Source: Paenarthrobacter sp. JL.01a (GTDB lineage Bacteria; Actinomycetota; Actinomycetes; Actinomycetales; Micrococcaceae). From it: a stretch of DNA of 64,000 bases. The stretch's first letter is position 1; every line of letters begins with the position of its first letter. The notes under the pieces are model-generated. The model did no database searches and was not told the DNA's origin. It saw nothing but the letters and a program-made list of their open reading frames with translations. A program made the position numbers and the translations under genes. The stretch is from positions 186,001 to 250,000 of the forward strand of contig NZ_CP104877.1 in the NCBI RefSeq assembly GCF_025452095.1. Direction: 5' to 3'. Of this stretch, positions 2,375 to 38,319 are shown piece by piece.

Positions 2375-3370
2375 ATGAAAAAGCTCATCAATGATCCGCG
2401 TGCCGTGGTGGACGAGTCCGTCGAAGGGTTCGGCATGGCGCATGCCGACATCGTGGACGTCCACCCCGAGCCGAAGTTCGTCGTCCGGAAAGGTGCACCG
2501 GTAAAGGGCAAGGTCGCCCTAGTTTCCGGCGGAGGCAGCGGCCACGAGCCCCTGCACGCGGGCTTCGTCGGGCTCGGCATGCTCGACGCCGCTGTCCCGG
2601 GTGCCGTCTTCACCTCGCCCACCCCTGACCAGATCATTCCGGCCACCGTCGCGGTCGACTCAGGCGCCGGCGTCGTCCATATCGTGAAGAACTACACCGG
2701 CGACGTCCTGAACTTCGAGACCGCGGCCGAGATGGCGCAGGCCGAGGGCGTTCACGTGCGTTCGGTCCTGGTCAACGACGACGTCGCCGTGGAGGACTCG
2801 CTGTACACGGCCGGGCGCCGTGGTGTTGGCGGAACCGTCTTGGTGGAGAAGATCGCAGGTGCTGCGGCGGAGCGCGGAGACGATCTTGACGCCGTCACGG
2901 CCATCGCCGAAAGGGTGGTGGCCAACGTGCGGACAATGGGCGTGGCCCTGTCCGGGTGCACCGTGCCGCACGCGGGAACACCGAGTTTCGAGCTCGCCGA
3001 CGACGAAATTGAGATCGGCATCGGAATCCACGGCGAGCCGGGCCGCCACAGGATCGCCATGGAAGGAGCCGACGCCATCACCGACCGGCTCCTGGAACCA
3101 GTGCTGGAGGACCTTGGCCTGAGTTCCAAGGTGCTGCTGTTCGTCAACGGAATGGGAGGGACTCCGCAGAGCGAGCTGTACATCGTGTACCGGCACGCCG
3201 CGCAGGTTCTTGCTGAACGTGGCGTCACGGTGGAGCGCTCCCTGGTGGGGAACTATGTGACGTCCCTGGAGATGCAGGGGTGCTCCGTGTCCGTGCTGCG
3301 CCTGGACGACGAGATGACAGGGCTCTGGGACGCTCCCGTCCACACTGCCGCGCTGCGATGGGGAGCCTGA
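2375..3370 (+). CDS. dhaK: Dihydroxyacetone kinase substrate-binding subunit DhaK
   Basis: The 331-residue DhaK subunit of the PTS-dependent dihydroxyacetone kinase, which binds dihydroxyacetone covalently for phosphorylation to DHAP. The [13 protein letters not shown] motif at 51-63 forms the substrate pocket, and His219 in GIHGEPG matches the histidine that forms the hemiaminal with substrate. Length matches the DhaK family. CAGGAG lies ahead of the ATG. It is first of a tight three-gene operon with dhaL two bases downstream and dhaM overlapping. The set feeds dihydroxyacetone or glycerol carbon into glycolysis in the cytoplasm. Confidence 0.95.
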
Positions 3371-3372
3371 GC

Positions 3373-4029
3373 ATGGGGCTGGACGTCAAGTGGGCGCAGG
3401 ATTGGCTGAGGCTGTCCGCCAAAGCGATGGCTGAGCACAGGGTCGAGCTGATTGAGCTGGACCGGGCCATCGGGGATTCCGACCACGGAGAGAACATGGA
3501 CCGCGGTTTCCAGGCGGTGCTGCAGAAGCTTGATGAAAGCCCGCCTGAAACCCCTGGTGCCGCGTTGAAGGCCGCCGCCATGGCGCTCATGTCCAAAGTG
3601 GGTGGAGCAGCCGGGCCGCTTTACGGAACGGCCTACCTGCGCGCGGCCACCTCGCTGGGCGACACGGTCGACGTCGACCCGGAGGCGCTCGCAGCGGCCC
3701 TCGCTGCAGCGCTGGACGGGGTTGTGGCGCGTGGAAAGGCCGAGCCTGGGGACAAGACAATGGTCGATGCGTGGACGCCGGCAGTCGAGGCTGCTGCGAA
3801 GGCGGCGGCCGACGGCGCAGAACCGTCGGCCGTGCTGGAAGCGGCCGCCAAGGCAGCGGAGGAAGGTGCCGGGGCGACGGATCCACTGGTGGCACGAAAG
3901 GGCCGGGCCAGCTACCTTGGCGACCGCAGCGCCGGCCACCGGGACCCCGGAGCGGCATCAACCGCGCTCCTGCTGCGGGCAGCTGCCGAGGCAGCCGCCG
4001 CATCCGGCAGTACGGGAGCGACCGGATGA
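3373..4029 (+). CDS. dhaL: Dihydroxyacetone kinase ADP-binding subunit DhaL
   Basis: A 218-residue DhaL subunit carrying the tightly bound ADP that is phosphorylated by DhaM and donates phosphate to substrate on DhaK. Asp30, Asp35 and Asp37 in DRAIGDSDHG are the Mg2+ ligands; the KTMVDAW and GHRDPGA nucleotide-site motifs are present. The ATG at 3373 has GGGGAG eight bases upstream; an in-frame ATG at 3358 would overlap dhaK and is less likely. The stop overlaps the dhaM start in an ATGA junction, implying translational coupling. Confidence 0.94.
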   Translation: MGLDVKWAQDWLRLSAKAMAEHRVELIELDRAIGDSDHGENMDRGFQAVLQKLDESPPETPGAALKAAAMALMSKVGGAAGPLYGTAYLRAATSLGDTVDVDPEALAAALAAALDGVVARGKAEPGDKTMVDAWTPAVEAAAKAAADGAEPSAVLEAAAKAAEEGAGATDPLVARKGRASYLGDRSAGHRDPGAASTALLLRAAAEAAAASGSTGATG

Positions 4030-4724
4030 CGGTTGGGATTGTGGTGGTGTCGCACAGCAGCAAGATCGCTGAAGGAGCCGTTGAACTCGCCGCCCAGATG
4101 GCGCCCGACGTCGGATTGGTCGCCGCCGGGGGCACTGACGACGGCCGGATCGGGACCAGCCTGGAGAAGGTGCTGGCCGCCGTCGAGCAGTCCCTGGTGG
4201 ATTCCGGTGGCGACGGCGTTGTTGTGCTGACCGACCTTGGCTCGGCAGTAATGACGGCTGAATCCGCGATGGAATTCGCCAGCAATCCGGACGCCGTGCG
4301 ACTGGCCGACGCGCCATTGGTGGAGGGGCTCGTCGCGGCGGCTGTGTCCGCGCAAGGGGGAGCCGGCGTCGAGGATGTCCGCAAGGCGGCCGAGGCGGCC
4401 GGCTCAACCAAGGACTCCGAATCGGCCAAGCGTACTGACCTGCCCGATCCGTATGGACAGGATGAGCCGGACGCGAGCGGAGACTTCGAACTCATCAACC
4501 CCATGGGGATGCACGCACGGCCAGCGGCAAAGATCGCCGGTGGCCTGTCCGGGCTGGACGCTGAGGTGACGGTGAACGGCGTCGACGGCATGTCCATCAT
4601 GGCGCTCATGGCGCTCGCCGCCGGGCAGGGCTCCAGCCTCCATGTCGAAGCCCGGGGCAAGGACGCGTCCAAGGCCGTTGAGTACGTGGGCCGCTTGGTC
4701 AAGGAGGGTTTCGGTGAGCTTTAG
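4026..4724 (+). CDS. dhaM: Phosphoryl carrier DhaM with EIIA-mannose and HPr-like domains
   Basis: A 232-residue two-domain phosphoryl carrier that re-phosphorylates ADP on DhaL. Residues 1-125 form the EIIA-mannose-type domain with phospho-acceptor His10 in VVSHSSK. After an acidic linker at about 128-152, residues 153-232 form an HPr-like domain with His163 in the classic GMHARPA motif. There is no PEP-utilising enzyme I domain, unlike the longer E. coli DhaM, so it must take phosphate from a general enzyme I encoded elsewhere. It starts inside the last codons of dhaL. Confidence 0.92.
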   Translation: MTVGIVVVSHSSKIAEGAVELAAQMAPDVGLVAAGGTDDGRIGTSLEKVLAAVEQSLVDSGGDGVVVLTDLGSAVMTAESAMEFASNPDAVRLADAPLVEGLVAAAVSAQGGAGVEDVRKAAEAAGSTKDSESAKRTDLPDPYGQDEPDASGDFELINPMGMHARPAAKIAGGLSGLDAEVTVNGVDGMSIMALMALAAGQGSSLHVEARGKDASKAVEYVGRLVKEGFGEL

Positions 4725-7578: not shown

Positions 7579-8253
7579 CTATGTACCTCCAGGGGCAGAA
7601 CGGTCTTGAAACTCGACCGCCAAAATCGCCCGGGACAGAGTGACCGCACGGTCCGCCAACACCTCAAGTTCGGTGTCGGTGCAATCAGTGGGAGCCCAGC
7701 GCGTAGCTCCCTCGAGGAGCGTGACCACCACCCTCACATGCTCCGCCGGCTCCGGGCACCCCATGTCACGCGCGGCTGCCTCATACATTTGCTCGTGTAG
7801 TGCCACCCAATCGTCCACCTGTGCCCGTAGATCCTTGGGCAGCACCTCTGCCATCCTGTCTGTGGCGACGAGCAAATCCCAGAGGTTGCTTTCGGGAAGC
7901 CGCACCTGGCGTGTGAAGTGAAGCCTGACCATCGCATCCCAGAACTCTTCCGCATTGCGCGCCGGTGCAACGGCTTCGAGCAGGGCGACGCCGAACCTGT
8001 GGAAGTGCCAGCGCAGGGATTCGGCGACGATTTCGTCCCGGCCATCGGGGAAGTGGGAGTAGAGGCTGGGAGGCTTGATATTTACGGCATTCGCAATGGT
8101 CCGCATCGAGACGGAGTTGAAACCGTTGGCAATGGCGAGCTGCAGGAAGGCCTCAAGGATGTTCTGGCGGCCAGCCTTCTGGCCTGTCCAATTCCATTCC
8201 TCCAGCCGCGATTCGAAGGCCTGGGTGGCAGCTTCATAGGACGTCACGCTCAT
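7579..8253 (-). CDS. TetR/AcrR family transcriptional regulator
   Basis: A 224-residue TetR repressor. The DNA-binding domain covers about 28-75 with the recognition helix in NAVNIKPPSLYSHF. The remainder is the helical ligand-binding domain. It is clearly paralogous to the regulator at 37602-38267: both share NG(F/Y)NSVSMRT, PSLYS-F, and HEQMY(E/A)AA. Two copies of CTAAC-N4-GTTAG stand just upstream, the same operator found before the paralogue, so autoregulation is likely. Its downstream partner is a broken SDR gene. Confidence 0.9.
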   Translation of the reverse strand: MSVTSYEAATQAFESRLEEWNWTGQKAGRQNILEAFLQLAIANGFNSVSMRTIANAVNIKPPSLYSHFPDGRDEIVAESLRWHFHRFGVALLEAVAPARNAEEFWDAMVRLHFTRQVRLPESNLWDLLVATDRMAEVLPKDLRAQVDDWVALHEQMYEAAARDMGCPEPAEHVRVVVTLLEGATRWAPTDCTDTELEVLADRAVTLSRAILAVEFQDRSAPGGT

Positions 8254-8301: not shown

Positions 8302-8315
8302 CTAACGTCTGTTAG
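8302..8315. promoter_or_regulatory. TetR-type operator 2 (CTAAC-GTCT-GTTAG)
   Basis: A second copy of the same inverted repeat, 37 bases from the first, on the side facing the truncated flavoprotein. It is followed by TTAGG, as in the third copy at 37553, which is followed by TTAG. Paired operators would allow control of both directions. Confidence 0.72.
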
Positions 8316-8385
8316 TTAGGTATTCTGAATGTGGCACGGAGCACATGCACCGGCCATCCGAATGGTTTGAGCGGAAGAGCACGCA

Positions 8386-8610
8386 ATGGTCACCCAAAAC
8401 ACGAGCGTGGGGGCCGCTCGGAACAACAACGTCATCCTCGGAAGCGGTCTTTCGGGAATGGTCGCCGCGTATATCGCCGCACGGGCGCTGGAGGACGACG
8501 CTTCACACGATAAGAACTGGAGTGCGGAACGGGCGTTCCGTCCCAAGCTGCCGAGGTGGCGGCCACGAAGGACCACGCCTGAAGGACCTGGCCCGGCATT
8601 GGCGTCCTGA
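8386..8610 (+). pseudogene. Truncated FAD/NAD-binding flavoprotein N-terminus
   Basis: A 74-codon frame whose first 40 residues look like the dinucleotide-binding start of a flavin oxidoreductase: VILGSGLSGMVAAYIAARAL gives the GxGxxG turn and following helix. Thereafter the reading loses any flavoprotein character and ends in low-complexity R/P-rich residues, so most of the enzyme is gone. Its position next to the tetR operator suggests it was the divergent target. A genuine short protein cannot be excluded. Confidence 0.5.
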
Positions 8611-8635: not shown

Positions 8636-10432
8636 ATGTCAGCAGAAGTATTGTCATCGTGGCCCTACGAGACACCACGCGAAACCAACCGCCTCCGGGA
8701 GATCTTCCTGATGCAACCCCATGCCGACCTCAGTGGTATCCGTCCGATGGTGGCCCGCTCGTGGTACCGGAGCCGGGCAGCGGGCGTCGACGCGTTTGCC
8801 GACCGCGGGTTCTACGACGAAGGGCGGGTTGACGAGTACACCATCGCGGCGGCCGGCACGCACCTGCGGAAACTGGATGAGGTGGCCGCCGACCTGGGCG
8901 GTTATGTGAACATCACCGCCCCCAACGGTGTGCTTGTCAAAGCCAGTTTCCTCCGGGACGACGGATTCCCCGCCGGCTACTCCCTGCTGGAGGAGAGCTG
9001 CGGCAGCAACGGCGAAGGTCTGGCGCTCGAAGAAGGGCGTGGTGTGTGGCTGGCCCCGGAAGAACATTTCCGTGAGGACATGAGGGGCAATTGGTGCTTT
9101 GCGTCCTTGGTACGCGACCCGTTCCATAACCGGGTGAGGGCCGTGATCGGATTGACGCTCCCGGCAAACAGGGTCAGCACACTGGAACCGTCATCAACAC
9201 TGCTCATGCTGGAAGGTGTTGCTTCGCGGATTGAGCGGGACATCGAGGTCCGTACCTCCTCGAAAGAGCGGGCATTGCTCAGTGAGTACCTCAGGGTCTC
9301 CCGCCGAAGGGGCAACCGGGCGGTCATCGCCGTCGACGGTAAAAACGCGCTTCAGAACGCCTCGGCGACGGCGACGCTGGTGGACAGCGATTTTTCGGTT
9401 GTTTGCGGCTACGCCAAGGCGGTCATGTCCTCCGGCCGTGACATGAACTGCGAAGTCATGCTGCAAGGGCCAGGGCTTTCGACCTTGGAGATAGCGCCTG
9501 TGTCGCTTTCATCGGCCAACGTGGGAGCAATCGTGGTGGTCCGGCCGCACGCACCCGCCAAAGAGCGGTCGAATGCTGCCTCAGGTGCTGCCATAGCGCT
9601 GGAGTCAGCACCAAAGGGGACCGCGGAGCGGTTGTTGAAGCACGTGGATGGCACCAGCACTGAGTTCAAGCGCACCCTCAACCTGGCCCAGAAAGCCGTG
9701 GACCAGGACAGGTCCGTGGTGATGTTCGGTGAAGTCGGCAGCGGAAAGTTGCGGTTGGCCGGTGCCATCGCCGCCCTGCGGGGTGGGCAGATGGTGGTGG
9801 ACGCCCGCAACGGAGACCTCAGGAACACCTCGCTCCGGGACATCCTGCACAGGGTGGCCACCGAGCTTCCCTCAACATTGATCGTGGAGCACGCCGATGA
9901 GCTCTCCCAGAACGAAGCCAGCGAGATCGCCCGCAACCTTCAGGGCATCGCCGCCACCAGGCTGATTTTCACCATCACGCGCCCCACGGAGGCCACCCTC
10001 CTGCTTTCCGAAGCCTTCGATGTCCTGGAGATTTCCGTGGCGCCCTTGCGCAACAGGCGCGAGGATATCCCCCAACTGGCCAACGCCATCGCGAAAGAGC
10101 TGGGGGAGCGGAAGCTGTCCCGGCGGCTCATCACCACCCTGACCCACGCTGATTGGCCCCGAAACATCGACCAGCTGCGCGCGGTGGTTTCCAACGCCGT
10201 CGAACGTGCAGAAGGTGCGGAGGTCACCCTGGACGACCTGCCGCAGGGTTTCCACCGCGTGCTGACCAAGGGCAGACTGTCCCGCCTGGAGGACGCGGAA
10301 CTCAGCGAACTGCGTACGGCGCTCCAGGAAGCGGGCGGCAACCGCAGCCTTGCTGCCGAAACCCTGCAGATCGGCCGTTCCACACTGTACCGGCGCATGG
10401 ACTACTTCCGCAGCCGGGGCTTCGACCTCTGA
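8636..10432 (+). CDS. AcoR-like Fis-type regulator lacking the sigma-54 loop
   Basis: A 598-residue regulator with the AcoR architecture: a GAF-type sensor (about 60-180; KLDEVAADLGGYVNITAPNGVLV, LLEESCGSNGEGLALEEGRGVWLAPEEH), a central AAA+-like domain (about 350-500) and a C-terminal Fis helix-turn-helix (about 553-593; LQEAGGNRSLAAETLQIGRSTLYRRM). The Walker A region GEVGSGKLR lacks the usual T/S after K, Walker B reads LIVEHADE instead of LFLDEIGE, and the GAFTGA segment is absent. Actinobacteria generally lack sigma-54, so it must work with another sigma factor. The ATG at 8636 follows GAGAGAA. It heads the catabolic island and is the best candidate to bind the 17-base boxes. Confidence 0.85.
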   Translation: MSAEVLSSWPYETPRETNRLREIFLMQPHADLSGIRPMVARSWYRSRAAGVDAFADRGFYDEGRVDEYTIAAAGTHLRKLDEVAADLGGYVNITAPNGVLVKASFLRDDGFPAGYSLLEESCGSNGEGLALEEGRGVWLAPEEHFREDMRGNWCFASLVRDPFHNRVRAVIGLTLPANRVSTLEPSSTLLMLEGVASRIERDIEVRTSSKERALLSEYLRVSRRRGNRAVIAVDGKNALQNASATATLVDSDFSVVCGYAKAVMSSGRDMNCEVMLQGPGLSTLEIAPVSLSSANVGAIVVVRPHAPAKERSNAASGAAIALESAPKGTAERLLKHVDGTSTEFKRTLNLAQKAVDQDRSVVMFGEVGSGKLRLAGAIAALRGGQMVVDARNGDLRNTSLRDILHRVATELPSTLIVEHADELSQNEASEIARNLQGIAATRLIFTITRPTEATLLLSEAFDVLEISVAPLRNRREDIPQLANAIAKELGERKLSRRLITTLTHADWPRNIDQLRAVVSNAVERAEGAEVTLDDLPQGFHRVLTKGRLSRLEDAELSELRTALQEAGGNRSLAAETLQIGRSTLYRRMDYFRSRGFDL

Positions 10433-10473: not shown

Positions 10474-10570
10474 GTGCGCTGCCCACCAACTGAAGAGGCC
10501 CGACGGCGGGTGGCCGCTTTGCGCGTCCGGGGCCCAGACACCCAGGCGCTGGGACAGTGTCCCACCGAGG

Positions 10571-10587
10571 TGTCTCGATCTGGCACG
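10571..10587. promoter_or_regulatory. 17-base regulon box A (TGTCTCG-ATC-TGGCACG)
   Basis: First of seven inverted repeats fitting TGTCYCA-N3-TGRNACA, 109 bases before the D-2-hydroxyacid dehydrogenase start. Extra half sites, TGGGACA at 10550 and TGTCCCA at 10558, lie beside it. It stands directly downstream of the AcoR-like regulator gene. Confidence 0.6.
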
Positions 10588-10695
10588 GATGGCCGCCCCG
10601 ATATCGCGTTGTACTGGAAATCACCCGACACCGGCACCCGTCCCAAGGAGTGTCCGGCAGGACCGAGGGTACCAACACGAACAGGACGACTGACT

Positions 10696-11643
10696 ATGAC
10701 CCGCGATGCCCAGGGAACCATTCTTGTGGCCCCTCACCATTTCCCGGACCTGGACCGTGAGCACGCGCTCGCGGAGGAGTTCGGTTACACACTCAACCCC
10801 GCGGCGGACACTGACGCCTTCCGCGACGGGCTGGCCGAAGCCGATATTGTGATGATCACTCCCTACGCCAAGCTCACTGCGGCGGACTTCCCGCTGATGG
10901 CCAAGTGCCGTGCAGTCATCCGGTACGGGATCGGCTACGACAACATCGACGTCGCCGCGGCCACCGAGGCGGGCATCCCGGTCTCGATCGTTCCCGGCAC
11001 GGCGTCGGAGGAAGTTGCCTCCCACGCCTTCGCGATGGGCCTGGCGCTGGCCCGCCGCCTGCCCGCCGGCAACGCAGCGATCAACAACCTCGGCTGGGCC
11101 GGAACCATCGGCTACGACACCCCTGTCCTCTCCGAGCTGGAGGTAGGCGTCCTGGGCATGGGACGCATCGGCCAGCACGTAGCCCGCATGTACTCGGCCG
11201 TCGGCGCCCGGGTCCGCGCCTACGATCCCTTCGTGACGGACAGCTTCGTGGAGATGGCCGGGCTGGAACACATCCTGGAGAATTCCGACGTCGTTTCCCT
11301 CCACCTGCCGCTGAACGACGAGACGGCGAACCTCATTTCCACCGGAGTCCTCGCCAGGATGCGCAAAGGTACCGTGATCGTCAACGTATCCCGCGGCGGA
11401 CTCATCGACGAGGCCGCGCTCGCCGAGGCCCTGACCTCGGATCACATCGCAGGCGCCGGCATCGACACCTTCGCCCAGGAACCGCTCGCCGCTGACCACC
11501 CCCTGCGCACGGCGCCCAACGCCATCCTCACCCCGCACATTGCCTGGCGTTCCAACCGGTCGACGGGCGCCCTGCAGGACGGCGCTGTGGAGCGGGTCCG
11601 CCTCGCGCTGACCGGCCAGCCACTCATCGACCTCGTGAACTGA
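10696..11643 (+). CDS. D-2-hydroxyacid dehydrogenase, NAD-binding
   Basis: A 315-residue member of the D-isomer-specific 2-hydroxyacid dehydrogenase family, reversibly reducing a 2-oxo acid to a D-2-hydroxy acid with NAD(P)H. The Rossmann motif VLGMGRIGQH is at about 152-161. The catalytic Arg lies in VNVSRGG near 231, Glu near 261 (AQEPL), and His in TPHIAWRS near 280. The ATG at 10696 begins the recognisable fold; the open frame extends upstream only through non-coding DNA. It is first gene of the operon running to hyuB and lies behind box A. Confidence 0.88.
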   Translation: MTRDAQGTILVAPHHFPDLDREHALAEEFGYTLNPAADTDAFRDGLAEADIVMITPYAKLTAADFPLMAKCRAVIRYGIGYDNIDVAAATEAGIPVSIVPGTASEEVASHAFAMGLALARRLPAGNAAINNLGWAGTIGYDTPVLSELEVGVLGMGRIGQHVARMYSAVGARVRAYDPFVTDSFVEMAGLEHILENSDVVSLHLPLNDETANLISTGVLARMRKGTVIVNVSRGGLIDEAALAEALTSDHIAGAGIDTFAQEPLAADHPLRTAPNAILTPHIAWRSNRSTGALQDGAVERVRLALTGQPLIDLVN

Positions 11644-11680
11644 AACGACCTGTGAACTGAAGAGACTGGAGAAACCCGAC

Positions 11681-12976
11681 TTGGCAACCACCAATCATCT
11701 TGAAGACCTCGCTGCTTTACAGAACCCTGTAGAAGATCCGCACCTGCGCCGTGGACCGCGTGGTTTCCCGCTGCTTCCCGGCGGCTACGGCCGCTCAACG
11801 TACTACACCGGCGCTCCGAGCCCCTACGCCATCAAGGGTGAGGGCTACCGGGTGTGGGACGACCGCGGGCGTGAACTGATCGACGCGAACAACAACTTCA
11901 CCTCGCTGATCCACGGCAACGCCCACCCGGAAATCACCGAGGCCGCCACCAAGGCCCTTACCACCGGGGCGAGCTGGGGCATCCCGAACCTAAACGAATG
12001 GGAACTTGCCGAACTCCTGCTCGGCCGCCTTCCGGAGTTGGACCAGGTCCGCTTCGCGAATTCCGGCACCGAGGCCGTCATGTCCGCGATCCGCATCGCC
12101 CGTGCGTCGACGGGGCGCGAGCGCGTTATCGTCACCAAAGGTGGTTACCACGGAACGTCCGAGGTTGCCCTGGTCCCGGGCGGGCCGTCCTACCAGCGCG
12201 GCGTGACCCGCGGCGTGATCGACGACGTCACTGCGGTGCCGCTGAACGACGTCGAATTCCTGCGCCAGGCGGTTGAAGCCGCTCCGGACGCCTATGCCGC
12301 CATCATCCTGGACCTGCTGCCCAACCGTGCCGGCCTGCTCACCATCAACGAGGAATTCGTCCGGACCGCCCGGGAGCTGGCTACCCGCTACGGCATTGTG
12401 CTGATCATCGACGAGGTCATCAGCCTCCGACTTGGCTACAGCGGCTTCAGCGGTGAGTACGGGGTTTCCCCGGATTTGCTGACCACTGGAAAGCTCATCG
12501 GCGGCGGATTCCCCGTCGGTGCGGTCTGCGGCAGGGCCGAGCTCATGGCTGAAGTGGACCCCACCCGTCCGGGCAGCCTGCCCCACGGCGGAACGTTCTC
12601 CGGCAACCCGGTCAGCATGGCCGCCGGTTCCGTTGCCCTGCGCCTCTACACCGAGGACGAGGTCAAGCGACTGAATCATCTGGGCGACACCGCCCGCGAA
12701 ACGGTCAACGCCAGGATTGCCGACGCCGGCTGGGAGATCCGTGGCCACGGCTCGCTCCTCCGCGCGGTTCCTGCCGGTGCGGAGAAAGTGGACGAGCACA
12801 CCCAGCACAAGCTGTGGTGGGCCTCCTACGAGCGCGGACTGCTCGGCTCCCCGGCCAACCTGCTCTCCCTGTCCACGCCCATGGACGAAAAGGTGGTGGC
12901 CGACATTACCGACCGCTTGGCCGACGCTGTCCTGGCAGTCGCCTCGGAGGCTCCCACTACGGAAGGTGCCAAGTAA
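11681..12976 (+). CDS. Class III PLP aminotransferase (glutamate-1-semialdehyde aminomutase-like)
   Basis: A 431-residue class III (omega) aminotransferase. FANSGTEAVMSAIRIARA at about 127-144 binds the PLP phosphate, LIIDEVISLRLG near 245 carries the PLP-ring aspartate, and the Schiff-base lysine is in LTTGKLIGGGFPVGA near 271. HGGTFSGNP matches the semialdehyde-aminomutase subgroup. No heme genes are near, and the catabolic context suggests a transaminase acting on a terminal amine or amino acid. The TTG start has GACTGGAG upstream. The next gene follows after two bases. Confidence 0.88.
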   Translation: MATTNHLEDLAALQNPVEDPHLRRGPRGFPLLPGGYGRSTYYTGAPSPYAIKGEGYRVWDDRGRELIDANNNFTSLIHGNAHPEITEAATKALTTGASWGIPNLNEWELAELLLGRLPELDQVRFANSGTEAVMSAIRIARASTGRERVIVTKGGYHGTSEVALVPGGPSYQRGVTRGVIDDVTAVPLNDVEFLRQAVEAAPDAYAAIILDLLPNRAGLLTINEEFVRTARELATRYGIVLIIDEVISLRLGYSGFSGEYGVSPDLLTTGKLIGGGFPVGAVCGRAELMAEVDPTRPGSLPHGGTFSGNPVSMAAGSVALRLYTEDEVKRLNHLGDTARETVNARIADAGWEIRGHGSLLRAVPAGAEKVDEHTQHKLWWASYERGLLGSPANLLSLSTPMDEKVVADITDRLADAVLAVASEAPTTEGAK

Positions 12977-12978
12977 CC

Positions 12979-13878
12979 ATGAAGATCGTTTCCTACGAAC
13001 ACGAATCCGGTATCCGCGGCGGCGTCCTGATCGAAGACACCGTCTATGACCTGGAACTGCTCCTGCAGGGTTCCCGCCAGGCAGTGCACGGAGCCACCAC
13101 GTCCGTCCGGGAATTCCTGGAACTTTACGGCGACCGGCTGGAGGCCATCTCCGCCGAGGTCAGCGTCTTGGCCGGACAGGATCCGGAAGCACACGTTGGT
13201 GCCCGGGCCGATGTCCGCCTGGCCACTCCGGTGCCCAATCCCTCCAAGGTGCTCTGCATTGGCCTGAACTACAAGGACCATGTTGCCGAGACCGGCCGCG
13301 CGTTCCCGGATTACCCTGACGTCTTCGCCAAGTTCGCCTCCACCATGGTTGGGCCCGAGGACGAAATCGGCGGTGCAAAGGTCAGCGAAAACCTCGACTT
13401 CGAGGGAGAACTGGCAGTAGTCATCGGGCGCAAGGCCAGTGAAGTCACGGAAGAAGAAGCGCTGAACTATGTGGCCGCACTTGCCCCGCTGAACGATGTC
13501 ACGGCCCGCGACCTGCAGTACCGCGGCACCCAGTGGTTGGCAGGCAAAGCCGTGGACGGGTCAACCCCGTGGGGTCCTGCCCTGGTCACCCTGGACGAAG
13601 TGGGCGATCCCCAGAACCTGGACCTCGCAACCCGCGTGAACGGCATCGAAGTGCAGCGCTCCAACACGAGCTACCAGATCTTCCCGATCGCGCGGATCAT
13701 CTCCTACCTCTCAAGCTTCCTCACCCTGGAACCCGGCGACGTCATTGCCACAGGAACCCCGCAGGGCATCGGTGCCAAGCGGAACCCGCCTGTCTGGCTG
13801 GAACCGGGAGACACCGTGGAAATCGAAATCGACAAGGTAGGTCTGCTCCGCAACACCGTGGGCAAGCCCCAGCTCTAA
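12979..13878 (+). CDS. Fumarylacetoacetate hydrolase (FAH) family protein
   Basis: A 299-residue FAH-family enzyme. The central motif KVLCIGLNYKDHVAETG (about 91-107) and acidic metal ligands in NLDFEGELAVVIG (about 137-149) with NDVTARDLQ (about 172-180) define the catalytic site. The C-terminal GDVIATGTPQGIG is typical of the family. Members hydrolyse or decarboxylate beta-diketo acids or dehydrate and hydrate sugar-derived oxo acids, so it could cleave or hydrate a late oxo-acid intermediate. The ATG at 12979 lies two bases after the aminotransferase stop. Confidence 0.9.
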   Translation: MKIVSYEHESGIRGGVLIEDTVYDLELLLQGSRQAVHGATTSVREFLELYGDRLEAISAEVSVLAGQDPEAHVGARADVRLATPVPNPSKVLCIGLNYKDHVAETGRAFPDYPDVFAKFASTMVGPEDEIGGAKVSENLDFEGELAVVIGRKASEVTEEEALNYVAALAPLNDVTARDLQYRGTQWLAGKAVDGSTPWGPALVTLDEVGDPQNLDLATRVNGIEVQRSNTSYQIFPIARIISYLSSFLTLEPGDVIATGTPQGIGAKRNPPVWLEPGDTVEIEIDKVGLLRNTVGKPQL

Positions 13879-13902
13879 CCCCCTGCAAGCTCTACGAAAG
13901 TA

Positions 13903-16002
13903 ATGAAGACCATGAGTGATGTACAAACACAACCAGGCGAGGCACGGTACCGCATCGCCGTCGACACCGGCGGTACCTTTACCGACGTCGTGGTCGGTTC
14001 CAACAGCGGCGACATGGCAGTCGGCAAGGCGCTGACCACCTACGACCGCGTGTTCACCGGCTTCGAAGCCTCGGTCCGCCGCGCGGCCGAGTCCGTTGGC
14101 TGGAGCGGCGACGATGTTCTCCGCAATGCCGACGTCATCGTCTACGGCACCACCCACGCCACCAACGCAGTGCTCACCGGCAAAGTTGCCAAGACGGCGC
14201 TGCTGACCACGGACGGTTTCGCCGACACGCTGCTGCTCCGCGAAGGTGGCCGCCGTGACGCCTTCGATTCCAAGGCTGCCTACCCACCGCCTTACATTCC
14301 CCGTCACCTGACTTTTGAAATCACCGAGCGCATCTCTGCCGAGGGTGACGTCCTGGTGGAGCTGGACGAAGAGCAGGTCCGCGAAGTCCTCGGTTCCTTT
14401 AAGGAACAGGGCATCGAAGCCGTTGCGGTCTCCTTCCTTTGGTCCATCATCAACGACGCCCACGAGAAGCGGGTTGCCGAGCTGATCCAGGAGATCCTTC
14501 CCGGCGTTCCGTACACGCTCTCCAACGCGGCCAACCCCACCATCCGCGAATACCGACGCTCCTCGGCAGCCTCGATCGACGCTTCCCTGAAGCCGCTCAT
14601 GGCAGACCACCTGGGTAAGCTGCGCTCGGACCTGCAGGAATACGGCTTCGCCGGCGACCTCCTGGTAGTGACCTCCGAAGGTGCCGTGCTCGACGTCGCC
14701 GATGTCCTTGACCGTCCCGTCCTGCTGCTGAACTCCGGCCCGTCCATGGCACCGCTGGTGGGTGCGGCGGCAGCCCCGGACCACGACACCGTGGTTGTCT
14801 GCGACATGGGCGGCACCACCTTCGATGTGTCGCTGGTGGAGAACGGCGTGGTCCGCCACACCCGCGAAGCCTGGCTGGGGGAGCCGTTCGTCGGGCACCT
14901 CACCGGCTTGTCTTCCGTTGCGGTTTCCAGCATCGGCGCCGGTGGCGGCAGCATCGCCTGGATCGACGGCGGTGGCCTCCTTCGCGTGGGCCCGCAGAGT
15001 GCGCGCAGCACTCCCGGTCCCGCAGCGTACGGCCGCGGCGGCGAAGAACCAACCGTCACCGACGCCTGCGTGGCGCTTGGCTACCTCGACACGGAGGGCT
15101 TCGAAGGCGGGTTTACCTTGAACCGCGAGGCCGCCGTCAAGGCCATCGATACCCGCATCGCCGGGCCTTTGAAGATGGACACCCTGCAGGCCGCCCAGGC
15201 CATCCTGGATGTCTCCGCCAACCACATGGCTACCGCCATCCGGCAGTCTGCCCTGGAACAGGGCGTTGACCCCCGGGGTGCGCTTATCGTTGCCGGCGGC
15301 GGCGCAGGCGCCATGGTCGCAGCGATCATTGGCAGGCTCCTGGAAGCGGACACCGTCCTGATCCCGGCGACCGCCGGCGTCCTGGCCGCCTACGGCGCCC
15401 ACCGCGCCCCAATCGCCACCGAGTTCCTCTCCCCGCTGCACAACGACACCCGCAGTTTCGACGCCGGTTCGGCCTCCCGCGCCGTGGAGGACCTGACAGC
15501 CAAGGCTGAGCTCTTCGTGAAGCGCTTCGACGGCGTAGGCGAAGCGCCCAAGGTCACCTACTTCGTCGATGCCCGCTACCCCGGCCAGGCCTGGGACCTC
15601 CGCGTCTACCTCGACGCCGCCCCGGACACCTCCGGTGACGCGGCAGGCATCATCGAACGCGCCTTCCACGAAGAGCACGACCGCCGCAACGGCACCCACG
15701 ATCCGGACAGCCGCGTGGAGATCATCACCTGGGGCGTCCGCGTGGAAATCCCGCGTCCGGAGCACACCAGGTCCGAAGGCGAACTCAGCCGCACCGCGGA
15801 AATCCACCGCACTGACAGCATTGTCTTTGGCGGCGAACCCTTCAGCACCCAGCGCTACCGCGGCGTGACGCTCGCTCCGCGCGACAAGATCGTGGGACCG
15901 GCCGTCATCGACCAGCCCACCACCACCATCGTCGTACCACCGGAATGGGACGCGACGCTCGATGAACGATCCAACATCTACCTCACCCGTAAGGAGGCGT
16001 AA
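13903..16002 (+). CDS. Hydantoinase/oxoprolinase subunit A (HyuA type)
   Basis: A 699-residue ATP-dependent amidohydrolase subunit. VDTGGTFTDVVV at about 20-31 is the ASKHA phosphate-binding loop. The Hydant_A_N domain covers about 17-200, and the Hydantoinase_A core follows with VCDMGGTTFDVSLV near 302-315 and GAGGGSIAW near 346. Such proteins pair with subunit B to open lactam, hydantoin or 5-oxoproline rings at the cost of ATP, or carboxylate ketones. The substrate cannot be read from sequence. Either ATG 13903 or 13912 could be used. hyuB follows after two bases. Confidence 0.9.
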   Translation: MKTMSDVQTQPGEARYRIAVDTGGTFTDVVVGSNSGDMAVGKALTTYDRVFTGFEASVRRAAESVGWSGDDVLRNADVIVYGTTHATNAVLTGKVAKTALLTTDGFADTLLLREGGRRDAFDSKAAYPPPYIPRHLTFEITERISAEGDVLVELDEEQVREVLGSFKEQGIEAVAVSFLWSIINDAHEKRVAELIQEILPGVPYTLSNAANPTIREYRRSSAASIDASLKPLMADHLGKLRSDLQEYGFAGDLLVVTSEGAVLDVADVLDRPVLLLNSGPSMAPLVGAAAAPDHDTVVVCDMGGTTFDVSLVENGVVRHTREAWLGEPFVGHLTGLSSVAVSSIGAGGGSIAWIDGGGLLRVGPQSARSTPGPAAYGRGGEEPTVTDACVALGYLDTEGFEGGFTLNREAAVKAIDTRIAGPLKMDTLQAAQAILDVSANHMATAIRQSALEQGVDPRGALIVAGGGAGAMVAAIIGRLLEADTVLIPATAGVLAAYGAHRAPIATEFLSPLHNDTRSFDAGSASRAVEDLTAKAELFVKRFDGVGEAPKVTYFVDARYPGQAWDLRVYLDAAPDTSGDAAGIIERAFHEEHDRRNGTHDPDSRVEIITWGVRVEIPRPEHTRSEGELSRTAEIHRTDSIVFGGEPFSTQRYRGVTLAPRDKIVGPAVIDQPTTTIVVPPEWDATLDERSNIYLTRKEA

Positions 16003-16004
16003 CC

Positions 16005-17765
16005 GTGACCCGCGAATTCGATCCCGTAAAGCTCTCGGTCCTTGCCAACGCATTCGACGGCATTGTCCGCGAGATGACCAGCGGACTGCTCCGCTCCGCC
16101 CGCTCTTCCGTGATCAACACGGCCCGCGACTTCTCCTGCGCCGTGCTGACCGCGGACAACCAGTTGCTTGCCGCGGCTGAAGGTGTTCCCGTGCACGTCT
16201 TCGGTGCCGGCCCGCTGGGCGAGGACATGGTGGAACTCCACAAGGACATCCGCGAAGGCGACGCGTTCCTGCACAACGACCCCTACATGGGTAACTCACA
16301 CGCAGCAGACCACGTGATCCTGGTGCCCATCTTCATCCAGGGCCGCCACCTCTTCACCGCCGTGACCAAGGCCCACCAGGCCGACTGCGGCAACTCCCTT
16401 CCCACCACATTCTTCGCCACCGCGCGGGACGTGTACGAGGAAGGCGCATTGATCTTCCCCTGCGTGCGGATCCAGCGCGACTACACGGACATCGACGACA
16501 TCATCCGCATGTGCCGGTCCCGCATCCGTGTTCCAGACCAGTGGTACGGCGACTACCTGGCCTCCGTCGGCGCCTCGCGCATCGCCGAGCGCCGCATCCA
16601 CGAACTCGCTGAAAAGTTCGGCGTCGATGACCTGGTGGACTTCGTGGACGCCTGGTTCGACTACTCCGAGCGCCTCACCGCCAGCGCGATCGAGAAGCTG
16701 CCCGAATACGTCCTGCACGGCACCTCCGCCCACGATCCGTTCCCCGGAACCGGCCCGGAGGGCGTGCAGCTGCAGGCAACCCTCGAGGTGAAGCCCAAGC
16801 AGGGCAAGGTGGTGATCGACCTGCGCGACAACCCGGACAACCTGCCCAACGGCCTGAACCTCACCAAGGCAACTGCCACCGGCGCCGCCCTGGCCGGCAT
16901 CCTTTCCGGCATCCCGGAGAACCTGCCGAGCAATGCGGGAACCTTCCGTCGCGTCGAGGTGCTGCTGCGGGACGGCTGCGCCGTCGGTGTTCCCAAGCAC
17001 CCGTACTCTTGCTCCTCCGGCACCACGAACCTCGCTGACCGCGTGGTCAACATCGTCCAGGCCGCTTTCTCCCAGATCGACGACGGCTACGGCACCGCCG
17101 AGGGCGCGGCCGGCCAGGCACCCGCCAAGTCGGTCATCTCAGGAACGGACGAACGAAACGGCAATCCCTACGTCAACCAGATCCTGGTAGGTGGCGTCGG
17201 CGGTCCGGCAACACCGTACGTAGACGGCTGGCCCACCTACCAGCGTCCCGTGTGCGGCGCCCTGTTGTACCACGACAGCGTGGAAGTGGACGAGCAGCGG
17301 TACCCGATCCTGGTCCACGAGCGCACCTTGGTTGCCGACTCCGGCGGAGCCGGCCGCCAGCGCGGCGGACTCGCCACACGCGTCACCATGGAGCCCCGCG
17401 GCGACAGCGTCACCCTTACCTATGGCATCGAAGGCAAGATCAACCCCCCGAAGGGTGTCCGCGGTGGCCACGACGGAGCGGAACCGTCCGCGTGGGTGGA
17501 GGACCTCAAGACCGGCGAACGCCGCGAAATTCCCGTGGTGGGCCGCTACGACCTGCAGTCGGGTGAGAAGGTCGTTTCCATCACTCCCGGCGGTGGCGGC
17601 TACGGCGACCCGCTGGAACGCGACGTCCTGGCTGTACTCGACGACTACCGCGAGTCCCGCGTGACCCTCGAAGCCGCGGCCGCACACTACGGCGTGGTCA
17701 TCACCGACGGTGCCATCGACGAGGCAGCCACGGCGAAGACCCGCGAGGAACGCCTGGCCGGCTAA
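16005..17765 (+). CDS. Hydantoinase/oxoprolinase subunit B (HyuB type)
   Basis: A 586-residue partner of the upstream HyuA protein. It spans the Hydantoinase_B family, with EMTSGLLRSARSSVINTARDFS near 23-44, AFLHNDPYMGNSHAADH near 87-103 and the glycine-rich end (SITPGGGGYGDPLERD near 525-540). The GTG at 16005 has TAAGGAGGCG just upstream. Together the pair forms an ATP-dependent ring-opening hydrolase or related ligase. A hairpin at 17784 follows the stop. Confidence 0.92.
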   Translation: MTREFDPVKLSVLANAFDGIVREMTSGLLRSARSSVINTARDFSCAVLTADNQLLAAAEGVPVHVFGAGPLGEDMVELHKDIREGDAFLHNDPYMGNSHAADHVILVPIFIQGRHLFTAVTKAHQADCGNSLPTTFFATARDVYEEGALIFPCVRIQRDYTDIDDIIRMCRSRIRVPDQWYGDYLASVGASRIAERRIHELAEKFGVDDLVDFVDAWFDYSERLTASAIEKLPEYVLHGTSAHDPFPGTGPEGVQLQATLEVKPKQGKVVIDLRDNPDNLPNGLNLTKATATGAALAGILSGIPENLPSNAGTFRRVEVLLRDGCAVGVPKHPYSCSSGTTNLADRVVNIVQAAFSQIDDGYGTAEGAAGQAPAKSVISGTDERNGNPYVNQILVGGVGGPATPYVDGWPTYQRPVCGALLYHDSVEVDEQRYPILVHERTLVADSGGAGRQRGGLATRVTMEPRGDSVTLTYGIEGKINPPKGVRGGHDGAEPSAWVEDLKTGERREIPVVGRYDLQSGEKVVSITPGGGGYGDPLERDVLAVLDDYRESRVTLEAAAAHYGVVITDGAIDEAATAKTREERLAG

Positions 17766-17783
17766 ACCGCAGCTATCGCAACC

Positions 17784-17819
17784 CATCCCGGGGCGGGGTA
17801 TAGTCCTCGCCCCGGGATG
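17784..17819 (+). terminator. Hairpin between hyuB and Gfo/Idh gene
   Basis: A perfect 12-bp stem (CATCCCGGGGCG) with a 12-base loop lies in the 82-base gap. It may terminate or attenuate the operon; the downstream gene has no box of its own, so some read-through is expected. Confidence 0.55.
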
Positions 17820-17847
17820 TTCCAACAATCATTAAACGGAGATTCAC

Positions 17848-18981
17848 ATGGAACCCATTCGAGTCGGCATTATCGGCGTCGGAAACGTCCTCAACCAATA
17901 CCTGGACAAGATCGGCGTCCACCCTGACGTCGACATCGTGGCGCTTGCGGATGTGAACCCGGAGGCCGTGCGGAAGCGCGCCGCCGAGTATGACGTTCCC
18001 AAAGCACTCACCCCGGACGAGTTGCTGGCGGACGAGGACGTGGAGCTGGTCCTGAACCTCACACCGCCCAAGCTGCACGCGCCGGTCACCCTCCAGGCGA
18101 TCGCGGCCGGCAAACACGTCCTTTCGGAGAAGCCCTTTGCCACGTCCCTTGAGGAAGCGAAGCAGATCCTGGACGCGGCACGGGAAGCCGGTGTCAAAGT
18201 GGGCTCCGCGCCCACCACCTTCCTGGGTTCCGGCATGCAGACCAGCCGCAAGCTCATCGACGACGGCTGGATCGGTGAGCCCGTTGCAGCTTTCGCTTCC
18301 TTCGCGTGCAGGGGCTACGAACACTGGCACCCGAACGTTGACCCGTTCTACAGCCCCGGCGCGGGCCCCATGCTGGACATCGGACCATACCTCATCACCA
18401 ACCTGGTGAACTTCTTCGGCCCCGTTTCCCGTGTCTCCGCAACCACGCCGCGTTCGTCCGAGACCCGTCCCCGCCCCGGCAAGGACGGCGAAGTCATCCA
18501 GATCCAGACCCCCACGCATGTCACGGGCACACTCGACTTCGAGTCCGGCGCCTCTGCCACCGTGATCGTCAGCTGGGACATCTGGAACCACAACCTGCCG
18601 CACCTGGAGATCTACGGCACCGGTGGTTCCTTGGCAGCACCGAACCCGGACCACTTCTCCGGCGCTCCCGTGCTGCGGCGCGGTGAGCCGGGCGACCTCG
18701 CGCTGGACATGACGCCTCCGGGCGGCGGCGACTGGCGCGAAACGCCCATCACCCACCGCGACGATGCCTACCGCGGCATCGGCTTGGCCGAGTTCGGCTA
18801 CGCCATCCGCAACGGCGTGGAACCCCGGACGGGCGGCGACTTCGCCTACCACGTGCTGGAAGTCCTCCTCGCCTTCGAGGCCTCCTCGGAGCAGGGCAAG
18901 CACATCGCGATCGAAAGCACCTGCGAGCGGCCCCGGCCGCTGCCCTCCGTGGGACCGCAGGAGCCTTACCGCTTCGACTAA
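17848..18981 (+). CDS. Gfo/Idh/MocA family oxidoreductase
   Basis: A 377-residue NAD(P)-dependent oxidoreductase. The N-terminal Rossmann motif VGIIGVGNV is at 6-14; LSEKPFAT near 92-99 carries the conserved EKP lysine. The C-terminal domain contains GPMLDIGPYLITNLVNFFG near 172-190, where the catalytic His of inositol dehydrogenases is replaced by Tyr in DIGPYL. That change is common in sugar dehydrogenase subgroups. It probably oxidises a sugar, cyclitol or derivative. It is the last gene before the 22-bp hairpin at 18994. Confidence 0.88.
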   Translation: MEPIRVGIIGVGNVLNQYLDKIGVHPDVDIVALADVNPEAVRKRAAEYDVPKALTPDELLADEDVELVLNLTPPKLHAPVTLQAIAAGKHVLSEKPFATSLEEAKQILDAAREAGVKVGSAPTTFLGSGMQTSRKLIDDGWIGEPVAAFASFACRGYEHWHPNVDPFYSPGAGPMLDIGPYLITNLVNFFGPVSRVSATTPRSSETRPRPGKDGEVIQIQTPTHVTGTLDFESGASATVIVSWDIWNHNLPHLEIYGTGGSLAAPNPDHFSGAPVLRRGEPGDLALDMTPPGGGDWRETPITHRDDAYRGIGLAEFGYAIRNGVEPRTGGDFAYHVLEVLLAFEASSEQGKHIAIESTCERPRPLPSVGPQEPYRFD

Positions 18982-19043: not shown

Positions 19044-19064
19044 CGTGTCCGGGCACGTGGCCCG

Positions 19065-19081
19065 CGTCCCAAACTGGGACA
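19065..19081. promoter_or_regulatory. 17-base regulon box B (CGTCCCA-AAC-TGGGACA)
   Basis: A near-perfect inverted repeat, 86 bases before the IolD-like start and 22 bases after the strong hairpin. Confidence 0.72.
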
Positions 19082-19166
19082 CAACTTTGCTTCCCCGCGG
19101 TGAAAACCTGATGTTCGGGCGAATCGGTTTGCAAATGCCGACGCACCTACGAATTTAGGAGAACGC

Positions 19167-23823: not shown

Positions 23824-23920
23824 AGTGGACTCCTTAGTTTGTGCCGCTCTTCGGCGGTGCTGTGCCGCGCAGAAAGACGGCATCTGCGGATCAGCCTATG
23901 AACGCAAGGAGTGTGCGCTG

Positions 23921-23937
23921 TGTCTCAATCTGAGACA
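23921..23937. promoter_or_regulatory. 17-base regulon box C (TGTCTCA-ATC-TGAGACA)
   Basis: The most symmetric copy, with perfect seven-base arms, in the gap between divergent genes. It lies 98 bases from the Gfo/Idh start and 75 from the SDR start. Confidence 0.75.
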
Positions 23938-24011
23938 TCCTGCGAAGGCCTCCGGCTGTTTAGGTAGAACGTACTAGTCCAGTAACGCCAAGAAAGAGGA
24001 GCCCGTCGACG

Positions 24012-30256: not shown

Positions 30257-30329
30257 GGGCTGGGCTTTGTCCTTTTAAAGACTCAACCGCCAAGAATTGT
30301 TTCCTGCAGCAACAATTCCGGCGGGTCCG

Positions 30330-30346
30330 TGTTCCAAAGTGGCACA
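30330..30346. promoter_or_regulatory. 17-base regulon box E (TGTTCCA-AAG-TGGCACA)
   Basis: A copy of the inverted repeat 182 bases before the ABC importer ATPase start. The longer distance implies a leader of over 100 bases. Confidence 0.7.
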
Positions 30347-30527
30347 CATACCGGGATATCCAATCCGTCAAAGTTCAAGTAAGTGAAACAGTGTGGCGAA
30401 GGTCACGCAGTTATGGGGCTTTCTTGAATTACCCCGGAATCTGCAAAGTCGAACAGCGTTGTTTGATGGTCCATCGCCAAAGGTGTTTCACCGGTTCATT
30501 TGCATGGCCCTATCAAACGAGGATGAG

Positions 30528-32407: not shown

Positions 32408-32467
32408 CCCGGCGAAGCACTACAACAATCTCCCAACGCACAGACAAAACCACTGAAAGGAACAACC

Positions 32468-36697: not shown

Positions 36698-36738
36698 TTT
36701 CGGCCGATGCAGACCGCGTCCGGAGGGTGTCCCAACCG

Positions 36739-36755
36739 TGTCCCAAACTGACACG
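36739..36755. promoter_or_regulatory. 17-base regulon box F (TGTCCCA-AAC-TGACACG)
   Basis: A full box preceded by an additional left half site TGTCCCA at 36728. It lies 70 bases before the small gene at 36825. Confidence 0.7.
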
Positions 36756-36824
36756 GTTAGGCCGCGGCGCCGGGACGGATGCTGGAAGTAGCCCAATAAC
36801 CCACCTATTTGAGAGTTGATCTCG

Positions 36825-38267: not shown

Positions 38268-38274
38268 TCGGCAC

Positions 38275-38291
38275 TGTCCCAACATGGCACA
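38275..38291. promoter_or_regulatory. 17-base regulon box G (TGTCCCA-ACA-TGGCACA)
   Basis: A box 63 bases before the permease 2 ATG, the same distance as box D to permease 1. A TACTGT -10 candidate follows after 22 bases. Confidence 0.75.
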
Positions 38292-38313: not shown

Positions 38314-38319
38314 TACTGT
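38314..38319 (+). promoter_or_regulatory. Candidate -10 element of permease 2 (TACTGT)
   Basis: TACTGTGAT stands at the same position relative to its box as TAGTGTGAT does before permease 1, while most bases between box and -10 differ. That supports functional spacing rather than recent copying alone. Confidence 0.55.

Follow-up and report, generated by a model that had tools for sequence, protein, structure and literature searches.

The 64,000-nucleotide stretch analysed here (Paenarthrobacter sp. JL.01a, contig NZ_CP104877.1, positions 186,001 to 250,000; hereafter the window) encodes a 598-residue regulator on its forward strand, in an open frame that runs from an ATG at 8636 to a TGA at 10432 (8636–10432). 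The protein consists of a sensor region, an AAA core that lacks the L1/GAFTGA loop, a lid and a Fis-type helix–turn–helix (HTH). It is likely to be a sigma-54-independent one-component activator of the enhancer-binding-protein superfamily with a build like that of DhaR, a reading drawn from its sequence and those of its relatives. The hydrolysis residues of the core are lost throughout the orthologue group, the genome contains no recognisable gene for sigma-54, and a palindrome at an invariant distance from a −10-like hexamer precedes the adjoining operon.

Domain architecture of the regulator

The C-terminal part of the protein is readily matched by Pfam, with AAA_lid_14 at residues 472–540 (10049–10255; 43.5 bits, cut-off 27) and HTH_8 at residues 551–589 (10286–10402; 43.9 bits, cut-off 22), all features of the gene lying on the forward strand. 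Sigma54_activ_2 and Sigma54_activat both score under their cut-offs. AAA_lid_14 and HTH_8 are matched in all 14 proteins of the alignment A2, which indicates common descent with the sigma-54-dependent enhancer-binding proteins, and the regulator is the sole AAA_lid_14 match in the whole genome (E ≤ 0.01). The comparisons below use 13 orthologue rows at 57–100% identity (loci L043 and L047–L058), or 14 with the window protein. One of these, L047 from Paenarthrobacter nicotinovorans SSBW5, is nearly the same gene (99.8%).

The N-terminal region is predicted to hold a GAF-like domain (residues ~66–205) followed by a PAS-like domain (~206–304; together 8831–9547). By sequence the GAF assignment is weak, PF01590 being matched in one of the 14 A2 proteins at E ≤ 0.1 and the window protein not being that one. 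A model of the N-terminal region (mean predicted local distance difference test, pLDDT, 67.2) has the DhaR sensor, DhaR(N) 4lrz_H, as its best PDB match (E 1.6e-5), with IclR-type effector domains ranked lower. This suggests a GAF/PAS sensor at the level of the fold, at TM-scores that are low and fall short of proof. The full-length model (mean pLDDT 70.3) shows a regular five-stranded core with AAA blocks mostly at 80–90, and a Foldseek search with it places NtrX and ZraR on top and DhaR(N) at rank 26. Ranked by Z, RFC clamp loaders and RuvB stand above the enhancer-binding proteins (15.5 versus 14.4), near ties with a large root mean squared deviation that reflect simply the AAA+ nature of the core.

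Motif losses in the AAA core

The canonical set (n = 5) consisted of E. coli NtrC and four loop-bearing AcoR-like proteins. Aligned to these, neither the window protein nor any of the 13 orthologue rows contains a GAFTGA L1 loop. The region where it would lie (approximately 9815–9886) is about 19 residues under canonical length, the interval from the Walker A lysine to Walker B being 47 residues (46–47 in the orthologue rows) versus 65–66, and the stretch from Walker B to sensor II is shorter by a further 25 residues (94 versus 119). The Asp-Glu position of Walker B reads Glu-His in 12 of the 14 rows (Glu418-His419 in the window protein, 9887–9892). At the arginine fingers (residues 451–465, 9986–10030) neither arginine is retained in any row, and the sensor II arginine is replaced by aspartate in 13 rows (Asp512, within the lid) and by glutamate in one. 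Walker B acids, arginine fingers and sensor II arginine are thus retained in 0 of the 14 rows, which is not the constitution of a sigma-54 activator, although the placement of single residues in divergent rows hinges on the alignment. Sequencing error as a cause was rejected, since 13 orthologue rows show the same losses.

The P-loop is a different matter. It reads GEVGSGK (residues 365–371, 9728–9748), and Lys371 of its GxxGxGK pattern is present in 14 of 14 orthologue rows. The canonical proteins have GxTGxGKE or GxSGTGKE in four of five cases and the lysine in all five; because they read GxxGxGKE and because the lysine is invariant in the orthologues, the GSGKL of the window protein is an intact P-loop and not a defect. 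This invariance means that nucleotide binding may be retained.

The first-pass annotation of this gene had described a protein that keeps a GAF sensor and Fis HTH but whose AAA+ region lacks GAFTGA and about 25 flanking residues, with GSGKL in Walker A and VEHADE in Walker B. The alignment bears out the missing loop and shows VEHADE to be a real loss. The shortening around the loop amounts to about 19 residues rather than the loop plus 25, the other 25 being lost beyond Walker B. The GSGKL letters are present without being the defect that they were taken for, and the HTH is secure where the GAF sensor depends on the fold match to DhaR(N).

Among 10 close orthologues (L047 left out; L054, L055 and L058 given by identity) the ratio of non-synonymous to synonymous differences (pN/pS) is 0.053 for the GAF region, 0.072 for the HTH, 0.085 for the lid and 0.125 for the N-terminus, rising to 0.207 for the AAA core and 0.213 for the linker; synonymous differences are about 0.6, so that only the contrast between regions is meaningful. 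Within the canonical set no region is better conserved than the core (identity 0.56, 10 pairs; GAF, HTH and lid 0.27–0.30, the HTH at 0.27). Among the actinobacterial proteins the core ranks lowest (0.23, 630 pairs), against 0.46 for the HTH. The AAA core is free to drift except at the P-loop, and sensor, lid and HTH are constrained.

A kept P-loop in an otherwise dismantled core raises the possibility that the same protein acts on the same targets with ATP binding, rather than hydrolysis, as an essential switch. Binding of ATP is reported to be essential in this way in Rhodobacter capsulatus NtrC (PMC10274813). The GxxGxGK pattern of all 14 orthologue rows and the regular five-stranded fold of the modelled core agree with such a switch, as does the lysine found in 26 of 36 relatives from genomes of the class and family. 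Arginine replaces that lysine in the other 10 of the 36 and in two of three named actinobacterial proteins, however, the rest of the core evolves fast, and a V. cholerae protein is reported to work independently of ATP (PMC10274813). We regard the ATP-binding switch as a serious contender that has somewhat less than an even chance of being correct.

A predicted operator ahead of the adjoining operon

Directly downstream of the regulator lies its probable target, an operon on the forward strand (10696–18981) that by Pfam encodes a D-2-hydroxyacid dehydrogenase, a class III aminotransferase, a FAH-family protein, hydantoinase A and B, and a Gfo/Idh/MocA protein. Within the flanking DNA examined, the orthologue loci of actinobacteria have the same gene order. 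The candidate operator is a palindrome near GTGTNCCANNNTGGNACAC (the GTGT palindrome), which stands 40 bp ahead of a −10-like hexamer in 13 of 13 actinobacterial loci, the window counted. In the window it reads GTGTCTCGATCTGGCACGG (10570–10588, centre 10579) and the hexamer is TGTACT (10610–10615, forward strand). In a 12-locus promoter alignment, made without L047 and L055, the best-conserved intergenic 17-mers are those at 10570–10571, GTGTCTCGATCTGGCAC(G), with a conservation of 0.94; the stretch ahead of the start codon reaches 0.90. The interval from operator to hexamer is gap-free in 12 of 12 aligned loci (hexamers TGTACT, TCTACT, TGTAAT and TGGAAT), and L055, counted by hand, has GTGTCTCGGAATGGTAC with TGTAAT at the same 40 bp.

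If transcription is assumed to start about 7 bp beyond the hexamer, the centre of the palindrome falls near −44, just upstream of the −35 position. A second dyad, GGGACA-G-TGTCCC (10551–10563, centre 10557), would lie near −65; it is exact in the window, L043, L047 and L049–L052. This predicted geometry fits ordinary sigma-70-type activation, and the placing of the palindrome near −44 at a fixed distance from the hexamer is what points to recruitment of housekeeping RNA polymerase.

An operator beside a promoter can serve repression as well, and the E. coli annotation lists DhaR and TyrR as dual regulators, so that the protein might repress the island of catabolic genes downstream, or both repress and activate it. 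The site lies just upstream of −35 at a hexamer distance that is invariant in 13 loci, which fits activation better, and we consider a repressing role fairly unlikely.

Further predicted operators on the catabolic island

The search for further sites began with a pattern taken from the first promoter alone, which gave two window sites; wider patterns gave 2, 3 and then 8 genome matches, the patterns growing with the sites. The 8 matches of the final 17-bp pattern (control 2) correspond to 7 places, 6 of which fall in the window within 26 kb (10570–36754) and one at 3326852. To lessen circularity, position weight matrices (PWMs) were trained on the 13 first-promoter sites only and compared with 20 column-shuffled controls. 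The six best window places of the symmetrised matrix are 19064 (23.0), 36738 (22.9), 10570 (22.1, a training place), 23920 (21.9), 27628 (17.1) and 30329 (13.3), its controls reaching 18.2 at best with a median of 14.5; 19064, 36738, 23920 and the training place alone exceed the best control. The plain 17-mer matrix scores 23920 at 16.8, 27628 at 15.5, 19066 at 13.2, 36738 at 13.0, 38274 at 10.1 and 30329 at 8.6 (controls: best 17.0, median 12.0). The ranking holds in the plain matrix; its scores alone fall short of the best control.

Several of these predicted operators recur elsewhere. That at 19064–19082 (GCGTCCCAAACTGGGACAC), upstream of an IolD-like gene at 19167, is found in ten orthologue loci (L043, L047–L053, L056 and L057). 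The site at 23920–23938 (GTGTCTCAATCTGAGACAT) lies between a Gfo gene (22639–23883, reverse strand) and an SDR gene (24012, forward strand) and recurs at 13814 of L065, from a plasmid of Arthrobacter sp. StoSoilB13. A third, at 27628–27646 (GTGTCCCAAGCTGGTACAG), is situated within the 3′ end of the gene 26662–27675, before a permease, and recurs at 17521 of L065. Further sites stand ahead of the permease in L048 and L056, ahead of the regulator in L055 and ahead of Gfo in L058. A weaker candidate (CTGTCCCAACATGGCAC, 38274–38290; 10.1, under the controls) precedes the permease at 38318. Both permease sites have a hexamer 40 bp from the start of the site, TAGTGT for 27628 and TACTGT for 38274. 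The listed permease start at 27672 would fall in its hexamer, where a later ATG behind GAGGA fits better, and that at 38318 overlaps the TACTGT; because the listed starts overlap the hexamers, the true starts are probably ATGs further down. An operator-like palindrome at 30329–30347 (GTGTTCCAAAGTGGCACAC; 13.3, under the controls) lies upstream of ABC transporter genes (30393–33436). The predicted operator at 36738–36756 (GTGTCCCAAACTGACACGG) has no clear gene directly behind it. In the stretch 36738–37600 this good site stands as an orphan, and so does the similar one at 7941 of L052, with similar flanks; a lost gene or a small RNA is possible.

A number of these observations weigh against a promoter-recruiting activator with an island-wide regulon. 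The −10 hexamers are poor (TGTACT, 4 of 6), and at 19064, 30329 and 36738 there is no hexamer above 3 of 6 in the range scanned. The upstream dyad is exact in just 7 of 14 loci and is weaker or absent elsewhere. The 17-bp pattern was drawn after several sites were known, which makes the clustering partly circular; 27628 and 30329 fall under the best symmetrised control, and in the plain matrix the training place alone exceeds the best control. The locus of a Rhizobium relative has a single related site, 138 bp ahead of the aminotransferase. Finally, the invariance of the P-loop lysine implies that nucleotide could still matter to the protein.

TetR neighbours and the identity of the binder

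Two TetR genes, about 47% identical to one another, lie near the ends of the island (7579–8253, reverse strand, and 37602–38267, forward strand). A box, CTAACGWCTGTTAGTTAG, occurs exactly twice in the window, at 8302 and 37553, once beside each TetR gene. The first copy (CTAACGTCTGTTAGTTAG, 8302–8319) is located between TetR and the regulator, where the window has no GTGT site. The two TetR proteins, each with this box of their own, probably sit above the island. Between the box and the regulator there is also a small open reading frame (8386–8610, forward strand; 74 residues, beginning MVTQNTSVGAARNNNVILGSGLSGMVAAYIAARALED), which is recognisable in 9 of 12 loci examined and whose middle resembles a dinucleotide-binding glycine motif.

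The position of the TetR genes near both island ends invites the thought that the GTGT palindrome belongs to one of them, or to a regulator encoded elsewhere. Each TetR gene has a different box, however, and loci L054, L055 and L058 keep the palindrome without any relative of the neighbouring TetR in the flanking DNA examined; in L055 a copy stands about 200 bp ahead of the regulator gene. A foreign binder is accordingly judged unlikely, and the regulator is the best candidate binder, as its co-conservation with the palindrome suggests.

The motif losses could also be taken as the sign of a decaying gene. This was rejected as very improbable, the frame being intact in the window and in 13 orthologue rows, pN/pS being low on sensor, lid and HTH, and the operator being conserved. 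Least credible is the idea that the protein is a functional sigma-54 activator and that its sigma factor escaped the searches. TGGCACG at 10581–10587, resembling a −24 element, lends this some colour, but the loop is absent and the genome, which is rated complete, gave no match for rpoN. The full consensus is matched at that place in 7 of 12 positions, a score equalled at 1421 plus-strand positions of the window, for which reason a sigma-54 promoter at 10581 was rejected as well.

Sigma-54 in the genome and among relatives

Profile searches with PF04552 and PF04963 gave no rpoN match in the source genome, a single contig of 4,404,497 bp rated 100% complete. Of 14 control genomes searched in this way, 4 were positive, including those of E. 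coli and B. subtilis. PF04552 was not matched in any of 11 actinobacterial orthologue genomes. The anatomy of the protein together with its genome rules out, for practical purposes, any remodelling of a sigma-54 polymerase. The lineage without sigma-54 presumed by the first-pass annotation is thus what the rpoN check found, and the loss of the loop fits such a lineage. The absence of sigma-54 permits the loss but is not needed for it, because DhaR and TyrR are loopless in E. coli, which has sigma-54; the genome that carries the loopless Rhizobium relative likewise has two PF04552 matches.

Two of the 296 genomes of the class encode a sigma-54 homologue, G223 (L004, L081) and G281 (L005, L082), the latter of the same genus as the window. 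Both homologues match PF04552 (E 2e-22 and 1e-24) and PF04963, with no match to AID, and each is accompanied by an enhancer-binding protein about 5 and 9 kb away. These proteins have GSFTGA and GAFTGA, respectively, with LFLDE, arginine-finger and GNxR motifs intact. Contamination is rated at 0 and 1% and is not formally excluded; the pairs of sigma factor and activator may be exceptional, and perhaps represent a mobile cassette.

Extent and origin of the loop loss

Relatives of the regulator (E ≤ 1e-15) were found in 22 of the 296 genomes searched for the class and in 8 of the 245 for the family, the window's own counted. The loop motif is found in 0 of the 37 actinobacterial relatives from these genomes, L026 (390 residues) being truncated before the AAA region and therefore dropped from the motif table, and it was also not found in the proteins of NBB4, PH-06 and RHA1. 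In the 36 that were scored, the Walker B aspartate is present in one and its glutamate in none, and the sensor II arginine in 13; the Walker A position is lysine in 26 and arginine in 10, as already noted. Loss of the loop is therefore family-wide among the actinobacterial relatives found and does not represent a change of the window gene itself. The idea of a conversion to a conventional activator with a vestigial ATPase stands in its core, given the absence of rpoN, the lost hydrolysis motifs, the fast-evolving core and the predicted operator, with the reservation that the P-loop is kept.

In the tree, which leaves out L047, L051 and TyrR, the orthologue group, the Rhizobium protein and a second protein of StoSoilB13 form one branch (100/100), and the loop-bearing rows, DhaR and a Ponticoccus protein form another (100/99). 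The deep order is weakly held (92/74, midpoint root). The loopless class proteins L017, L023 and L029 are drawn on the loop-bearing side, and the loopless alphaproteobacterial Ponticoccus protein groups with the loop-bearing rows on a long branch. Because the deep supports are modest and loopless proteins occur on the loop-bearing side, the tree does not decide between one loss and several.

The Rhizobium relative is loopless and 31% identical to the regulator, and it is surrounded by genes similar to those of the island (hydroxyacid dehydrogenase 53%, aminotransferase 62%, FAH 58–60% identity). Among the 199 genomes of its family it was detected in one, its own (E ≤ 1e-20), and in the tree it pairs with the Arthrobacter plasmid copy (100/98). 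Within the plasmid collection, the second StoSoilB13 protein is the closest to it (43.5%). The Rhizobium copy had suggested loss of the loop in a sigma-54 host. This was dropped, since import is likelier given the single occurrence in 199 genomes and the pairing with Arthrobacter; the copy looks imported, with the direction of transfer probable rather than proven. In Rhizobium leguminosarum (L044/L059) the regulator is found with several catabolic genes common to the actinobacterial islands, and in strain BIHB 1217 these genes lie on a plasmid typed as conjugative, so that inter-phylum transfer is probable. The StoSoilB13 plasmid (L065) carries two regulators of this branch about 19 kb apart in the same island, the second of which adjoins a permease and an aldehyde dehydrogenase gene.

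Comparison to known systems

The closest precedent is E. coli DhaR. Both proteins combine a sensor, a degenerate AAA core and a Fis HTH without GAFTGA, and both have lost the Walker B, arginine-finger and sensor II residues while keeping the P-loop lysine. Among PDB structures the N-terminal model matches the DhaR sensor best, and DhaR also heads the NCBIfam rows. DhaR is described as sigma-70 dependent (PMC3162934). The regulator belongs with loopless DhaR-like proteins in that the loop is missing and sensor, AAA and Fis HTH are kept, the sensor by fold comparison and weakly by sequence. It is not DhaR itself, scoring 85.2 bits on the DhaR equivalog NF008485 against a cut-off of 551, and DhaR has nearly full spacing (62 and 118 residues) where the regulator has 47 and 94. 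DhaR also binds DhaK/DhaL. Genes resembling dhaK, dhaL and dhaM, named from sequence, lie 4 kb upstream of the regulator (2375–4724, forward strand). A partnership with DhaK/DhaL was rejected, as dhaK is not linked at other loci: it was found in 1 of 13 genome-contig loci (flanks ≤ 10 kb), namely L047 with its nearly identical gene set. No predicted operator was found near the dhaK of the window.

TyrR, unlike the regulator, retains the Walker B, arginine-finger and sensor II residues. NtrC, HupR and VpsR carry receiver domains; none is seen in the regulator. For the loopless NtrC proteins of R. capsulatus and Caulobacter, as for TyrR, HupR and VpsR, action at sigma-70 promoters has been reported or argued (PMC3162934, PMC10274813), and Caulobacter NtrC is reported to require both Walker A and Walker B residues (PMC10274813).

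The loop-bearing AcoR-like proteins (Cupriavidus metallidurans, Caballeronia, Peribacillus and Parageobacillus) arrange AAA core, lid and Fis HTH in the same order, and three of the four align over the GAF region as well. Unlike the regulator they carry a loop motif (GAFTGA or GSFTGS) and the full set of catalytic residues. Acetoin dehydrogenase families did not stand out among the 20 window proteins searched with Pfam, the search covering these proteins and not the rest of the genome. M. chubuense NBB4 MYCCH_RS28775, named ‘AcoR-like’ or ‘Fis family’ and located beside a monooxygenase cluster, is loopless like the regulator but has arginine for the P-loop lysine. The regulators of monooxygenase clusters (NBB4, Rhodococcus prm, MimR) are distant (≤ ~30% identity) and have different targets, BCP1 and MimR being compared by description. 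In Rhodococcus BCP1 the promoter of prmA, which has a mapped start site, lies beside a Fis-family regulator, and its putative −35 box is overlain by a palindrome (PMC4428276). By analogy, this promoter offers an independent hint of the same geometry.

Loopless relatives of the sigma-70 type are already established (PMC3162934). No description of loop loss in actinobacteria was found in the literature searched, most subscription journals lying outside its coverage. As far as that literature shows, the extent of the loss, its actinobacterial spread and the predicted operator with its regulon are new.

Proposed mechanism and significance

A metabolite would bind the GAF/PAS-like sensor and alter a dimer or higher oligomer held together by the loopless, hydrolysis-dead AAA core and the conserved lid. 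The paired Fis-type HTHs would then bind the palindrome, which at the first promoter lies near −44 relative to the predicted start and at its fixed distance from the −10-like hexamer. The protein would act by recruiting or contacting housekeeping RNA polymerase rather than by ATP-dependent remodelling of a sigma-54 polymerase. The regulon would be the neighbouring catabolic island (window ~10.6–38 kb), comprising hydroxyacid dehydrogenases, an aminotransferase, hydantoinase-type enzymes, the IolD-like enzyme, a dehydratase, permeases and an ABC transporter.

More speculatively, and at present rather doubtfully, the actinobacterial branch as a whole may have passed from a ring-forming, ATP-burning remodeller of polymerase to an energy-free recruiter. 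Its core, without both loops and the hydrolysis residues but with the P-loop kept, would act as a nucleotide-gated scaffold and position pairs of Fis HTHs at palindromes near −44 (and −65 where present) of housekeeping promoters. The regulator would travel with catabolic genes and this type of operator, and would once have entered a sigma-54-bearing Rhizobium, where it is still loopless.

The loopless enhancer-binding proteins of the literature are mostly single proteobacterial cases; here a whole actinobacterial set shows the loss, and a larger one. In the plasmid records examined, such proteins carry no annotation beyond HTH or GAF protein. The predicted operator provides a handle on a catabolic island so far characterised at the level of its enzyme families. 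Since the probable operator, regulon and promoter geometry of one member are legible from the sequence, the role of an AAA core that can neither contact sigma-54 nor, judging by its residues, hydrolyse ATP becomes directly testable.

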